DNA of 64,000 bases from contig JAIOPV010000188.1 in assembly GCA_021413735.1 (NCBI GenBank), forward strand, positions 1 through 64,000, written 5' to 3'. The notes under the pieces are model-generated. The model was not told where the DNA came from, did no database searches, and worked only from the letters and a program-made list of their open reading frames with translations. The first letter of the stretch is position 1. Each line of letters opens with the position of its first letter. Source of the stretch: Planctomycetota bacterium (lineage in GTDB: Bacteria > Planctomycetota > Planctomycetia > Gemmatales > Gemmataceae). Shown here piece after piece: positions 54,379 through 64,000 of the stretch. The translations under genes were made by a program, and so were the position numbers.

Positions 54379-54777
54379 ATGAAGTCAAAACCACTGAAGC
54401 GAGTTGACGCGGATTGCTGCACCAAGCCCGCGTTAAAGGAGCGTCCGCTGCTGTCACCAATTCAGGCTGGTGGCCTGGCTGCAGTGTTCAAGGTACTCGC
54501 GAACGACACCCGGCTTCGCCTCCTGCACGCTCTGGTGCGGGCGGACGAACTGTGCGTAACGGATCTTGCCGCGTCTGTCGGAATGAAGCCGCAAGCCGTG
54601 TCGAATCAGCTTCAGCGGCTCTCGGATCTCGGCATCCTCACATCACGACGTGACGGCAATAACATCCACTATCGGCTAGTCGATCTGTGTGTGCGGTCGT
54701 TGCTCGATCAGGGGTTGTGCCTCATGGAAGAAGTGAGCGATCGAAGCCGTGGACTTCGTGGGACGTGCGACCAATGA
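54379..54777 (+). CDS. arsR: ArsR/SmtB-family metalloregulator
   Basis: A 132-residue winged-helix repressor. The core reads LAAVFKVLANDTRLRLLHAL, VRADELCVTDLAASVGMKPQ, AVSNQLQRLSDLGILTSRRD and NNIHYRLVD. Candidate metal ligands: Cys pair in VDADCCTKP at the N-terminus, one Cys in ELCVTDL (ArsR of E. coli has two there), and two near the end in DLCVRSLLDQGLCLMEE. The last site resembles CmtR/SmtB-type C-terminal sensing. Arsenite is the likely inducer given the operon. The operator lies just upstream. Confidence 0.9.
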   Translation: MKSKPLKRVDADCCTKPALKERPLLSPIQAGGLAAVFKVLANDTRLRLLHALVRADELCVTDLAASVGMKPQAVSNQLQRLSDLGILTSRRDGNNIHYRLVDLCVRSLLDQGLCLMEEVSDRSRGLRGTCDQ

Positions 54778-54788
54778 AGGAACAAGGA

Positions 54789-55466
54789 ATGCGGAAACTG
54801 ACTGCCGAGATGTTTGGCACGTTCGCGCTGGTCTTCGCGGGAACGGGAGCCATCATCATCAACGACGTGAGCGGCGGCACGGTGTCGCACGTCGGGATCG
54901 CGTTCACGTTTGGGTTGATCGTCCTGGCGATGATCTATTCCATTGGCGATGTCTCGGGTTGCCATCTGAACCCCGCCGTGACGCTCGGATTCTTCGTCTC
55001 CAATCGCTTCGAGGGCCGTCTGGTTCTCCCGTACATCGGGAGTCAGTGCCTTGGTGCGTTGCTCGCGAGTTTCACCCTCCGTGCGATGTTTCCAGCACAC
55101 GCGACACTCGGCGCAACAGTTCCGGCCGGTGATGCGATGCAGTCATTTGTGCTGGAGTTCATGCTCACGCTGATTCTGATGTTCGTGATCCTCAGTGTCT
55201 CCGTCGGCTCAAAAGAGAAAGGCGTACTGGCGGGCGTGGCGATTGGGTCGGTGATCGCTCTTGAAGCGATGTTCGCGGGTCCGATCAGTGGGGCGTCGAT
55301 GAACCCGGCTCGTTCGCTGGCACCGGCTCTCGTCTCGCTTCACCTGGAGAGTTTGTGGATCTACCTCGCGGCTCCGGTTCTCGGTGCGTGTGTCAGTGTC
55401 TTCGCTTGTCGTTGTGTGCAAGATCCCGGGTGTTGTTGTCGCCGCGAATGTGAAATGAAAACGTGA
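54789..55466 (+). CDS. Aquaporin/MIP channel of the arsenic operon (AqpS-like)
   Basis: A 225-residue membrane channel with six helices starting MRKLTAEMFGTFALVFAGTG; AAGGA is nine bases upstream. NPA motifs are NPAVTLGF at residue 61 and MNPARSLAP near 185. The C-terminal cytoplasmic tail is unusual: CRCVQDPGCCCRRECEMKT has six Cys in 19 residues. In ars operons such channels (AqpS) let arsenite leave the cell after ArsC reduction, in place of ArsB or ACR3. No ArsB or ACR3 is present here. The Cys tail could bind arsenite. Confidence 0.88.
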   Translation: MRKLTAEMFGTFALVFAGTGAIIINDVSGGTVSHVGIAFTFGLIVLAMIYSIGDVSGCHLNPAVTLGFFVSNRFEGRLVLPYIGSQCLGALLASFTLRAMFPAHATLGATVPAGDAMQSFVLEFMLTLILMFVILSVSVGSKEKGVLAGVAIGSVIALEAMFAGPISGASMNPARSLAPALVSLHLESLWIYLAAPVLGACVSVFACRCVQDPGCCCRRECEMKT

Positions 55467-55511
55467 CCGTTCAGCGGTAGCCAAGATCACCATTATTTTG
55501 AGGTACAAAAC

Positions 55512-55967
55512 GTGACGCTCGACACCTTCTTGAAAGTTCTCTCAGCGAACCCTGCGGTGGCGGTGCATCTGATGCTGCCGGACCTGAGTTTCGTACCGGC
55601 GCACTTCCACATCACCGAAGTCGGACGGGTTCATAAGGACTTTATCGACTGCGGAGGCACGATTCGCTCCACGACTGCGTGCGTCTTGCAAGTGTGGGTC
55701 GCACAGGACTTCGACCACCGGCTCGATACCACGAAACTGGCCATGGTGATGCAACTCGCGGCTCCGCTGCTGAAGTCAACCGATCTGTCAGTCGAAGTCG
55801 AATACGAGAATGAAACCGTGTCGCTGTTCCATGTCGCTGCTGCCGAAGTGACACCCTCGGGAATTCTGTTCCATCTCGGCACAAAGCACACGGCGTGCTT
55901 GGCCCCAGATCAGTGCGGCGTTGGCGCAGTCGCGAAGCCCGGTTGCGCGGCACCCGGTTGCTGCTGA
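55512..55967 (+). CDS. DUF6428 protein with cysteine-rich tail
   Basis: A 151-residue soluble protein with a GTG start (GAGG upstream). LMLPDLSFVPAHFHITEVGR, DFIDCGGTIRSTTACVLQVW and DHRLDTTKLAMVMQLAAPLL are the motifs of DUF6428, a family I recall next to arsR/arsC genes in many bacteria; its role is not known. The last 23 residues carry five Cys (CLAPDQCG ... PGCAAPGCC), parallel to the tail of the upstream channel. It may bind arsenite or a metal. Confidence 0.8.
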   Translation: MTLDTFLKVLSANPAVAVHLMLPDLSFVPAHFHITEVGRVHKDFIDCGGTIRSTTACVLQVWVAQDFDHRLDTTKLAMVMQLAAPLLKSTDLSVEVEYENETVSLFHVAAAEVTPSGILFHLGTKHTACLAPDQCGVGAVAKPGCAAPGCC

Positions 55968-56000
55968 CTCTTTGGCTTTAGATCTCTTTCAGGAGTAACG

Positions 56001-56402
56001 ATGGAACCGCTCAAAAGCGTGCTGTTCGTCTGCGTCGAGAACTCGAATCGTAGTCAGATGGCCGAGGCGTTCGCACGCATCCACGGAGTCGGTAAGGTCG
56101 CGGCATTTAGCGCTGGTTCGCGTCCATCGGGGCGCGTGAACCCGAAGGCCATCGCAGCAATGCAGGACCTCGGCTACGACCTGACCACCCACACCTCGAA
56201 GGGCCTGGATGCCTTCAATGGAAAAGAAATCGAGGTCGCAGTGACGATGGGTTGCGGCGATGAGTGCCCGCTGGTTCTCGCGAAGCAACGTGTCGATTGG
56301 AAGATTCCCGATCCCCGAGACATGACGCCCGAGCAGTTCAAGGAAGTGCGTGATCTGATCGAAACGAAGGTGAAGGAACTGATTGCATCGCTCGGTACCT
56401 AG
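56001..56402 (+). CDS. arsC: Thioredoxin-coupled arsenate reductase
   Basis: A 133-residue LMW-phosphatase-fold enzyme. The P-loop C11VENSNRSQ binds arsenate; Cys85 and Cys89 in MGCGDECP are the resolving pair of the thioredoxin-type relay; Asp in IPDPRDM is the general acid. It reduces As(V) to As(III). It ends the ars operon (arsR, channel, DUF6428, arsC) and stops 15 bases before the convergent CRTAC1 gene. Confidence 0.93.
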   Translation: MEPLKSVLFVCVENSNRSQMAEAFARIHGVGKVAAFSAGSRPSGRVNPKAIAAMQDLGYDLTTHTSKGLDAFNGKEIEVAVTMGCGDECPLVLAKQRVDWKIPDPRDMTPEQFKEVRDLIETKVKELIASLGT

Positions 56403-61336: not shown

Positions 61337-63205
61337 GTGCCACGACGATGCTACATCACTTCCGTCGGCCAGTTCTTGCCCGGTGAACCCGTCAGCAACG
61401 ACCAGATCGAAGCACGCCTCGGACAGATCGGCAGCAAGCCCTCCGCACTTCGCGAACGTGTGCTGCGCCAAAACAAAATTGAGCAGCGCTATTATGCGAT
61501 CGACGATCAGCAACGCACCGTGACGAGCAACGCTCGCATGGCAGCGGAAGCTGTTCGTGCTGCTATCGCGAACAGCACCGTCGATCTCAAAGACATCGAC
61601 TTGCTGGTTGCGGCGACATCACAGGGCGATCTGCCGTTGCCGGGGTTCGCCAGCATGGTGCAGGGCGAACTCCAGATGCCAACGTGCGAAATCGCCACGC
61701 TGCACGGCATCTGTGCGAGTAGTGTCGTCGCGTTGCGGCACGCTGCCCTCGCTGTCGGCTCGGGTGAAGTTAAGACAGCCGTATGCGTCGCCAGCGAGTT
61801 CGCGAGTCGGCTCTTAAAAGCATCGCGATTTCGGGCACAGGGCGACGGCGACGAGAAGCGATTGCCATTCGAGACGGAGTTTCTGCGCTGGATGCTTTCC
61901 GACGGGGCGGGGGCATTGCTCATCAGCGATACGCCAGCGCCGCGTGGGTTGTCGCTCGAAGTTGAGTCGATCACGCTGAAGTCGCATGCGGGGCGGTTTC
62001 CGCCGTGCATGTTCGTCGGCAACAAGGACGAAGTTCACGCAACTCCGTCGGTGGGCTGGCTCGATCATCTCAGTTATGAATCCGCTTCTGCGTCAGGCGC
62101 GATCAACCTTCACCAAACCACGGCGCTGCTGAACGATGTCGTGCGGTTGTGTGTGAATGGCGTCTTCGAGTTGATCGAAGATGGCAAGATCGACCCGAAG
62201 GGCATCGACTGGTGGCTGACGCATTACTCGTCGCATCTGTTCCGCGAGCAAGCATACGAACTGTTCGTGCGTGGCGGGCTGACCATCGACCAGAGCCGTG
62301 TGTTCACGAACCTGTACACGACCGGTAACGTCGGCTCGGCATCGTTCCCGTTGATGCTCGGCGACTTGTTCCGCAGCGGCAAACTGAAACCGGGTGAACG
62401 CATCCTGGGTATCGTTCCCGAGAGTGGGCGGTTCCTGTTCGGGTATGTCGTGCTGCGGGTCGTGGGTAGCGAACCGCACGACACCGAGATGCCGCACATT
62501 GCGACTGTCTCGGAGCCGCCGGACATCAAGACGAGCGGTGCCCCGATCGAGGAATCGCTGGTTCGGCAACTCGCATCTGTGTGGACCGACTTCGAGAGCA
62601 GGCTGAATCAGGTTCCGATTGTCGCGAAGATGTATCAGCATCGAATGACGTTGCAGGATTATCGTGATCTTCTGTTCAACTTGCGTCAGCAGGTGATCGA
62701 CGGCTCGCGGTGGATTTCGCGTGCTGCCTCGAACGTGACCCGCGAACACTTTCCGATACGGTCGGCGTTCATCGGGCATTCGCGCGACGAACACCGCGAT
62801 TTCGAGATGATCGAACGCGATTACGTCTCGGTTGGTGGCGATGTCGATGTGATTCGCAATGGCGAGAAGAACGTCGGCAGCACGGCGCTTTCGGAATACA
62901 TCCTGAGTAGGGCGAGTCGCGAGAACCCGTTCGATCTCATCGGGGCGATGTTCATTATCGAGGGGCTTGGTCGGCGGGTCGCGGCGCGATGGGCCGAGCA
63001 GATTCGCCTGCAATTGCACTTGGAGCCAAAGCAGGTATCGTTCCTGACGTATCACTCCGCGAGCGACGATGTCCACTTTGAACGCCTCGACGCGGCTGTG
63101 CAATCGGGCGTTCTCACCGACAAACTCGTGCCCGAAATCGTGAAAGCCGCCAAGGTGGTGGCGAGGCTGTACGTCCTGCAACTCGAAGAGATCGGGAACT
63201 TCTGA
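61337..63205 (+). CDS. StlD/DarB-like ketosynthase fused to heme-oxygenase-like domain
   Basis: A 622-residue protein with a GTG start (GAGG upstream). Residues 1-380 form a FabH-type thiolase fold: C126 in LHGICASSV, His296 (or 300) in WWLTHYSSH, Asn331 in TGNVGSAS. The segments KPSALRERVLRQNKIEQRYY and LRWMLSDGAGALL fit the StlD/DarB group of ketosynthases that build cyclohexanedione or dialkylresorcinol. Residues about 400-622 are all-helical and carry E542 and H573-x3-D577-x2-H580, the ligand pattern of heme-oxygenase-like dimetal oxygenases (CADD/UndA). Which substrate is used is open. A second gene starts one base after its stop. Confidence 0.72.
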   Translation: MPRRCYITSVGQFLPGEPVSNDQIEARLGQIGSKPSALRERVLRQNKIEQRYYAIDDQQRTVTSNARMAAEAVRAAIANSTVDLKDIDLLVAATSQGDLPLPGFASMVQGELQMPTCEIATLHGICASSVVALRHAALAVGSGEVKTAVCVASEFASRLLKASRFRAQGDGDEKRLPFETEFLRWMLSDGAGALLISDTPAPRGLSLEVESITLKSHAGRFPPCMFVGNKDEVHATPSVGWLDHLSYESASASGAINLHQTTALLNDVVRLCVNGVFELIEDGKIDPKGIDWWLTHYSSHLFREQAYELFVRGGLTIDQSRVFTNLYTTGNVGSASFPLMLGDLFRSGKLKPGERILGIVPESGRFLFGYVVLRVVGSEPHDTEMPHIATVSEPPDIKTSGAPIEESLVRQLASVWTDFESRLNQVPIVAKMYQHRMTLQDYRDLLFNLRQQVIDGSRWISRAASNVTREHFPIRSAFIGHSRDEHRDFEMIERDYVSVGGDVDVIRNGEKNVGSTALSEYILSRASRENPFDLIGAMFIIEGLGRRVAARWAEQIRLQLHLEPKQVSFLTYHSASDDVHFERLDAAVQSGVLTDKLVPEIVKAAKVVARLYVLQLEEIGNF

Positions 63206-63206
63206 G

Positions 63207-64000
63207 ATGCCGCCCACAGATGCCATCGACCGACTGAAAAGCGTGAACCACAACCCACAGGACCCGAACCCGTGGCTGGCGCTTTATCTCGACACGAGCA
63301 TCGCGCTTCACGAAACCGCCAAGGCGAATTTCCTGATTGATGTCGGCTCGCGGTCGCGGCAATACTTCTTCCCGCTGATCCGACCGCTGTGCCGATTGGG
63401 GATCGCGTTCAACAAGGTGCTGAAGACGTTCTTGCCGAACTTCCTTACGTCGTCGTGGTTGCTGCATCACTCGATTCATCTCGGCCTGAAGTGGTTCGTG
63501 TCGCCGTATGCGAACTATCTCGTGATGCGGCACTTCCACATCGGCACGGAGTTGCTTCAGTTCGTTGCGGGCAACGCGAAGGGCGTGAAGATGGAGTTCA
63601 AAGGACTCCGCCCCGAGAAACTGAAGGACTTGGTCAACAACGTGTTCCTCGATCACGATCTGAACATTTACAACTTCGTGATCGAGATCAACCGCCAGCT
63701 CCACGAGCAGAATCGCGACCTCGAACCGAAGGACGAACTCGATTTCAGTTGCATCACGGATGGCGACTTCCCGATTGAAGAGATGCCGCGAGGGTGGTTC
63801 AACTTCATCGACCTCGAAGCCGCGATTGAGATTTACACGCCGATGTATCAGCTCTTGCTGACCGATAGCGACTTCTGGCGTGCGTGCAACTCGCTGCAAC
63901 TCGACGAAACAATTGCCCTCTACGCGACGACGCTCATCAACGATCACAAGTTTCTTGGCCTCGTCAACAATCGCCATCCGATTGTTCCGGAATCGACGTT
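63207..64000 (+). CDS. Unrecognised gene coupled to the ketosynthase, runs off the window
   Basis: Open from ATG, one base after the ketosynthase stop, through the window end: at least 264 codons, 3-prime end not seen. It starts MPPTDAIDRLKSVNHNPQDP. Three or four hydrophobic helices occur (FFPLIRPLCRLGIAFNKVL, FLTSSWLLHHSIHLGLKWFV) and it is rich in His and acidic pairs: HHSIH, RHFHIGTELLQF, LDHDLNIYNFVIEINRQL, DHKFLG. Such spacing recalls membrane metal enzymes (desaturase-like) but no consensus is complete. The tight coupling suggests it acts on the ketosynthase product. Confidence 0.72.
   Translation, partial: MPPTDAIDRLKSVNHNPQDPNPWLALYLDTSIALHETAKANFLIDVGSRSRQYFFPLIRPLCRLGIAFNKVLKTFLPNFLTSSWLLHHSIHLGLKWFVSPYANYLVMRHFHIGTELLQFVAGNAKGVKMEFKGLRPEKLKDLVNNVFLDHDLNIYNFVIEINRQLHEQNRDLEPKDELDFSCITDGDFPIEEMPRGWFNFIDLEAAIEIYTPMYQLLLTDSDFWRACNSLQLDETIALYATTLINDHKFLGLVNNRHPIVPEST

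Follow-up and report, generated by a model that had tools for sequence, protein, structure and literature searches.

The window analysed here is a stretch of 64,000 nucleotides, positions 1 to 64000 of contig C137 (JAIOPV010000188.1; 161,377 bases), from the 9.8 Mb genome of a Gemmataceae planctomycete assembled in 293 contigs (GCA_021413735.1). At its right end two genes follow each other on the forward strand, the first encoding a ketosynthase (KS) fused to a heme-oxygenase-like dimetal oxidase (HDO) domain and the second a protein of the DUF6999 family (Table 1). Such a fusion had been proposed from a sequence-only reading of this DNA, and it was confirmed by a single open reading frame (ORF) with Pfam and NCBIfam profile matches to both parts. 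The claim that the next gene starts one base on was also correct, as the TGA of the fusion is followed by one base and then by the ATG at 63207. The nearest relatives of the KS-HDO protein were found in Gemmata (83% identity) and Limnoglobus (80%). On the basis of the comparisons described below, the locus is almost certainly a two-gene, three-part biosynthetic module formed by KS, HDO and DUF6999.

Table 1. Features of the KS-HDO and DUF6999 genes in window coordinates; residue numbers refer to the fusion protein.
Feature	Position	Strand	Basis
KS-HDO fusion coding sequence, 622 aa, GTG start	61337..63205	+	Pfam and NCBIfam matches; 15-row alignment A1; AlphaFold2 (AF2) model, mean predicted local distance difference test (pLDDT) 80.8
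StlD/DarB-type ketosynthase domain, residues 1-377	61337..62467	+	NCBIfam NF005293; StlD 5gk2/5gk0, Z 46
Catalytic Cys126	61712..61714	+	49/49 loci with KS match
Catalytic His296 (StlD His302)	62222..62224	+	Alignment to 5gk0; 49/49 loci
Catalytic Asn331	62327..62329	+	49/49 loci with KS match
Variable linker, about residues 378-402	62468..62542	+	Variable columns in A1; pLDDT <50 at 381-391; near split site of unfused homologues
HDO-like (Haem_oxygenas_2) domain, about residues 403-622, all helical	62543..63202	+	PF14518, 32.3 bits; 3dde profile match, E 1e-8; model helices
Alpha1 motif H481-x3-E485-x2-D488 (canonical His replaced by Asp488)	62777..62800	+	Alignment to 3dde; each residue 49/49
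Glu542, alpha2 ligand by alignment	62960..62962	+	49/49 loci
Alpha3 ligands by alignment, H573-x3-D577-x2-H580	63053..63076	+	49/49 loci
DUF6999 (PF22523) coding sequence, 5' part	63207..64000	+	302 aa in total, ending at contig position 64115; AF2 model of the L004 Gemmata orthologue

Residues 6-376 of the fusion matched the NCBIfam StlD/DarB ketosynthase model NF005293 (E 6.3e-110, 367.8 bits), and StlD/DarB models were the top scorers among the 25 NCBIfam matches listed. When the AF2 model of the whole protein (15 sequences, mean pLDDT 80.8, predicted template modelling score (pTM) 0.60) was compared with solved structures, the two best matches were both StlD (Z 46.3 and 46.0, 359 residues, root-mean-square deviation 2.2, 37% identity), the remaining 48 matches listed having Z values of 36.6 or less. 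A sequence search of solved structures also gave StlD first (E 4e-71), followed by FabH-type enzymes at 5e-17. Residues were counted over 50 loci, one per genome, 49 of them with a KS match, as the contig of L071 ends before its KS. The Cys-His-Asn triad C126, H296 and N331 was present in 49/49; in the alignment with StlD, C126 and N331 match, and H296 pairs with His302, the residue mutated in 5gk2. The triad of the sequence-only reading therefore stands with H296 as its histidine, and its alternative, H300, is dropped, since this position faces a Glu in StlD and is a His in only 42 of 49 loci. The kinship to StlD/DarB suggested there is well supported by the structural match, though the score lies under the curated cut-off. 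Enzymes of the StlD/DarB type join acyl units and cyclise them to a 2,5-dialkylcyclohexane-1,3-dione. In a cluster table of PMC3949708, the part of that source used here, DarB of the dialkylresorcinol (DAR) cluster is given as the cyclase and DarA as the aromatase. The KS of the window shares with StlD/DarB the fold, the triad and the closest structures (5gk0 and 5gk2); it differs in its lower score, in being fused to or paired with an HDO and in having DUF6999 as a partner.

OleA was also among the structural matches (Z 34.8, 19% identity), and another chemistry can be built on it, in which an OleA-like KS would make an open-chain beta-keto acid by condensing two fatty acyl chains head to head and the HDO would decarboxylate it oxidatively, as in UndA, giving a long-chain alkene or ketone. 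UndA is an HDO that acts as a fatty-acid decarboxylase, according to the portion of PMC13108848 consulted, and a desaturase gene in 13/50 loci suggests acyl chains. We consider this route unlikely, as StlD is far closer to the KS than OleA is in both Z and identity, and StlD/DarB models lead the 25 profile matches listed.

The C-terminal part matched Haem_oxygenas_2 (PF14518) over residues 490-612 with 32.3 bits, against a gathering cut-off of 28.9. The AF2 model is helical over 403-617; in the structure search with the whole fusion the list was filled by KS matches. A profile built from 13 HDO domains was run against the PDB, and its only significant relative was 3dde (E 1e-8), an uncharacterised TENA/THI-4 protein with a heme-oxygenase-like fold. 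This protein shares the Glu residues at E485 and E542 and the H-x3-D-x2-H motif at H573, D577 and H580; it has a His facing H481, one turn before E485, and differs from the window family in having His at the position of Asp488. Over the 49 loci with an HDO match (all but L067), H481, E485, D488, E542, H573, D577 and H580 were each found in 49/49, and H486 and E493 in 48/49. All seven residues of the putative ligand region were kept even in L071, the HDO of which is only 29% identical.

In the part of PMC11363339 consulted, the motif general to HDOs is given as E-H-E-H-(D/E)-H, and the corresponding set here is E485, D488 in place of His, E542, H573, D577 and H580. In AetD the ligands are described as D76-x2-H79 on alpha1, with H72 before it, E140 and H172-x3-E176-x2-H179 (excerpt of PMC10654658), and its spacing matches that of the window HDO (H72/D76-x2-H79 versus H481/E485-x2-D488 on alpha1, H172-x3-E176-x2-H179 versus H573-x3-D577-x2-H580 on alpha3). 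The invariant His481 possibly replaces the absent alpha1 His. The likeness to UndA, CADD, AetD and SznF thus extends, as far as the same two excerpts go (PMC11363339, PMC10654658), to the Haem_oxygenas_2 family, the alpha2 Glu and the alpha3 H-x3-D-x2-H; the differences are the alpha1 pair E485-x2-D488, compared for example with D76-x2-H79 in AetD, and the fusion or pairing with a ketosynthase. Accordingly, the E542 and H573-x3-D577-x2-H580 residues pointed out earlier were found in every locus with an HDO match, and the CADD/UndA-type assignment made from them holds for the family, alpha2 and alpha3, and fails for alpha1, which has E-x2-D instead of E-x2-H. The HDO could also be a non-catalytic or metal-free partner, as PqqC and TenA have the same fold and need no metal (same excerpt of PMC11363339), and Asp488 occupies in 49/49 loci the position at which 3dde has the canonical alpha1 His. 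This we regard as improbable, because the invariance of all seven residues, down to the 29% identical L071, hardly fits a loss of metal binding. HDOs with undetermined or unusual metal motifs are considered in that excerpt likely to reveal new chemistry (PMC11363339). In the complete genome of Limnoglobus roseus an in-frame stop was observed ten residues short of the usual HDO end (L005 9822-9824; G344:C1:6467972-6468667).

The downstream protein, described in the sequence-only reading as His-rich, membrane-like and of no known family, belongs to PF22523 (DUF6999), with 347.6 bits for its portion within the window and 388.9 bits for the complete gene, at a cut-off of 27. Its His content is indeed 4.6% (14/302). 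No 19-residue stretch exceeds 1.6 on the Kyte-Doolittle scale, the maximum being 1.11, so that a membrane protein is unsupported for the window protein. Weakly hydrophobic stretches were detected in the myxobacterial L059 orthologue (maximum 1.92), and DUF6999 may be attached to the membrane in some lineages. The AF2 model of the L004 Gemmata orthologue (mean pLDDT 82.8, pTM 0.83) is almost all helical. Comparison with known folds gave a best VIA-align Z of 4.7, and Foldseek returned nothing with an E value of 0.001 or lower, which does not in itself show that the fold is novel. Invariant residues include D29, R51, R108, H109 (46/46), H150, D151 and D202 (45/45 aligned). A DUF6999 gene above the cut-off was also present in Caulobacter vibrioides, included as a control genome. 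Among the open-licence papers listed by the searches, none was seen from its title or opening abstract lines to deal with DUF6999 or a KS-HDO fusion. In one metagenome-assembled genome (MAG) DUF6999 lies in two frames (L006 9866-10822), by assembly error or decay.

The module of KS, HDO and DUF6999 was found in Planctomycetota, Verrucomicrobiota, Cyanobacteria, Myxococcota, Actinomycetota and Pseudoalteromonas, with KS and HDO fused in some lineages and separate neighbours in others. A first genome scan with the fusion, which detects close relatives only, returned 19 loci, all 19 with KS and HDO matches; DUF6999 comes next in 18 of them, and in L017 the contig ends first. Separate adjacent ORFs for KS and HDO were found in Myxococcales (L020), Cellulomonas (L021) and Pseudoalteromonas (L037), and this is Rosetta-stone evidence, together with the split state of 7 of the 42 rows of the tree described below. 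On the Pseudoalteromonas plasmid pTHAF3_a the three genes stand in a row, annotated as 'beta-ketoacyl-ACP synthase III', 'iron-containing redox enzyme family protein' and a hypothetical protein with a DUF6999 match. Plasmid records gave one match, and phages one weak match, to the KS part.

In 45/50 loci the DUF6999 gene is found downstream on the same strand, within 190 bases in 38 of these, with a desaturase gene between in five (L058, L059, L062, L096 and L097), and at 643 and 1205 bases in L064 and L093, respectively. Among the five remaining loci, the contig runs out in L017, L083 and L084, DUF6999 is adjacent on the opposite strand in L070, and in L082 the genes are unlinked: in genome G739 KS-HDO-desaturase is located at 2.23 Mb and DUF6999 3.75 Mb away, at 5.98 Mb of the same contig, and both have been kept.

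Carriers were counted in genome sets, each of which includes a genome known to carry the module, through which the set was entered. DUF6999 was found in 22/195 genomes in the phylum of a Myxococcales MAG (21 above the cut-off), 7/244 cyanobacteria, 5/102 genomes of the window's own order and 3/296 Actinomycetota (above the cut-off, entry genome included); above the cut-off it was likewise found in 1/294 Planctomycetota, the one being the genome of the window, and in 1/240 Verrucomicrobiota (the entry genome). At E 1e-15 the HDO profile matched 19/195, 8/244 and 6/102 genomes in the myxobacterial, cyanobacterial and own-order sets. Within the window's genus 4 of the 19 listed genomes carry DUF6999, which makes the module an accessory trait. 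Among 541 genomes searched for both, 31 had both, two HDO only, two DUF6999 only and 506 neither, so both are present in 31/33 HDO-positive and 31/33 DUF6999-positive genomes; G781, with a DUF6999 match below the cut-off, was excluded, and as the genomes are related the Fisher values are not independent evidence. The HDO-only genomes are G500, with a partial match, and G331, with a 60-bit match that is probably to another HDO family. DUF6999 without HDO was found in G831 and in G728, where only a fragment is left (62 profile positions; L072 9405-9720, myxobacterial set) with no HDO match, an apparent loss of the module.

The coupling of KS, HDO and the second gene suggested by the sequence-only reading is thus strongly supported by genome comparison. 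If DUF6999 and KS-HDO were chance neighbours lacking a functional link, their joint presence in most genomes could result from their being inherited on a single DNA segment; the same order and strand in 45/50 loci over six phyla and the retention of both when unlinked in G739 make this extremely improbable. Because of the fixed trio, the fusions and this retention, it is very likely, as judged by genome context, that the three share a pathway.

Of the 42 rows of a KS+HDO tree, 35 have the fused and seven the split form. Single-branch groups were formed by Planctomycetota (16 rows, 83/64, including one with a Rickettsiales label), Cyanobacteria (seven, 100/99), Actinomycetota (three, 100/100) and Verrucomicrobiota (two, 100/100), whereas the 13 Myxococcota rows need four changes. 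In a 43-row KS tree, a single clade (96/89) holds 34 of the 35 fused rows, and L068 stands apart on a long branch. The fused state needs two changes in this tree, because L068 is fused yet branches, with an unsure place, with L067 and split actinobacterial forms. One fusion followed by later splits and two fusions are both possible. The row labelled Rickettsiales (L010, a MAG contig) groups in its KS-HDO with the Pirellulaceae L009 and L019 (99/95) and is probably a misbinned planctomycete contig.

A fatty-acid desaturase gene adjoins the module on the same strand in 13/50 loci (L013-L015, L058, L059, L062, L068, L069, L082, L083, L084, L096 and L097); it was assigned to PF00487 by Pfam for four loci and is cut by the contig end in L083 and L084. 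This gene speaks for acyl chains, so the earlier suggestion of a lipid or aromatic pigment pathway is plausible in its lipid part; no evidence was obtained for an aromatic pigment. In L067 (genome G831) KS and DUF6999 are kept, the KS scoring 442.5 bits with the StlD/DarB model, close to the cut-off of 450, and a P450 gene is adjacent; no HDO match was found in that genome at E 1e-15, and the genome may be incomplete. This arrangement would suit an oxidase that can be exchanged, and it groups DUF6999 with the KS. It also bears on a reversed order of action, in which the HDO would prepare an unsaturated or oxidised acyl chain for condensation by the KS. The usual substrates of characterised HDOs are fatty acids or amino acids, and their reactions include desaturation and C-C cleavage (PMC13108848, in the portion consulted), which suits such an order; L067, where the KS may work without an HDO, and the separate desaturase in 13/50 loci make it distinctly unlikely.

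The reading we prefer is that the KS makes a cyclohexanedione-type ring, the HDO oxidises this product and DUF6999 assists; to this we give a probability of roughly 0.4, as a proposal from sequence and structural kinship. The KS would join two fatty-acid-derived acyl thioesters, a beta-ketoacyl unit and a second acyl or enoyl unit, and would cyclise the joined chains to a 2,5-dialkylcyclohexane-1,3-dione, as StlD/DarB do and as the kinship of the KS to them suggests. The tethered HDO, with O2 and a dimetal centre of altered ligands, would then oxidise the KS product in place, by aromatising, hydroxylating or cleaving it, and would so fill the oxidative role held by DarA in dialkylresorcinol pathways. 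DUF6999 would be a helical partner of the KS, perhaps a carrier, a redox partner or a further enzyme, and the desaturase added in other lineages would be consistent with a lipid product. Only tentatively can this be extended to a cyclase-oxygenase for an undescribed lipid class in six phyla, with a dialkyl ring formed by the KS, oxidised in the same polypeptide by an HDO with a new dimetal ligand set (Asp488 for the alpha1 His, with His481 possibly in its stead), and DUF6999 as a helical protein of a new type, catalytic or a carrier, that this product also requires.

Several points weigh against the cyclohexanedione proposal. To our knowledge no product is known for any member of the module. 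The KS score of 367.8 bits is below the curated NF005293 cut-off of 450, so the domain is called StlD/DarB-type and not a proven member, and its reaction may differ. The alpha1 pair of the HDO is E-x2-D, with the first-helix His absent in 49/49, so that metal binding is only putative. DUF6999 has no confident fold match, and its role is therefore a guess. Pfam scans of neighbouring genes named no acyl carrier protein, no ligase and no aromatase, and this includes DarA-like aromatases, for which whole genomes were not searched. The desaturase, in 13/50 loci overall, is in the module of no Gemmata-type locus. Finally, the co-occurrence counts overstate independence, given linked inheritance of the operon, related genomes and entry through known carriers.

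A comparable system, as far as described in the part of PMC10896814 consulted, likewise pairs a condensing enzyme with an oxidoreductase in a short operon and occurs in planctomycetes and cyanobacteria; it differs in having a type III polyketide synthase, with chalcone-synthase Pfam domains, and an FAD oxidoreductase, where an StlD-type KS, an HDO and DUF6999 are found here. With the present module, an orphan family, DUF6999, and an unassigned HDO branch are tied to a ketosynthase family of known chemistry, which makes both testable through the expression of one or two genes. The module is small and spans six phyla, and its carriers include named strains of Gemmata, Limnoglobus, Cellulomonas and Pseudoalteromonas.

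A further family (A5, cluster c2), of His-rich membrane proteins of about 190 aa, adjoins the module in 11/50 loci (L010, L011, L013-L015, L019, L020, L022, L037, L069 and L070; alignment A5 covers ten). Its invariant motifs are CHR, HExxAHxD and ExHxH, which we take to be reminiscent of membrane diiron enzymes. No match was found in Pfam (two members), in NCBIfam (one member) or, at significance, in the PDB (profile). As a fourth core part the family was rejected and classed as accessory, being present in only 6 of the 38 DUF6999-bearing genomes searched, in two of these weakly (144 bits), and having no match in the window's own genome. An MMPL-type transporter gene lies near L069 and L067, and L067 also has the P450 and a thioesterase. 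None of these five genes (desaturase, A5 protein, MMPL, P450 and thioesterase) was seen beside the window's pair.

The pair had been taken for the left edge of a longer pathway, and the sequence to the right of 64000 was examined, with ORFs viewed to contig position 80000 and four of them scanned with Pfam. These four encode a FAD_binding_4 oxidase, an Fe-S/CCG protein, a PMT mannosyltransferase, which lies on the opposite strand, and an FmdA-type amidase (formamidase). They look unrelated, and over 39 neighbourhoods only the FmdA-type gene recurred, in one other locus; a cluster continuing to the right was therefore rejected. Farther along contig C137, at about 69650-78320 (L002 9651-18321), integrase-like, VirD4/TraG-like and ParB-like ORFs, recognised by eye, look like an integrated conjugative element. 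Inside the window, at 54379-56402, translations inspected by eye resemble an ArsR-like regulator, an aquaporin-like channel, a 151 aa protein and an ArsC-like reductase, which together look like a small arsenic-resistance operon.

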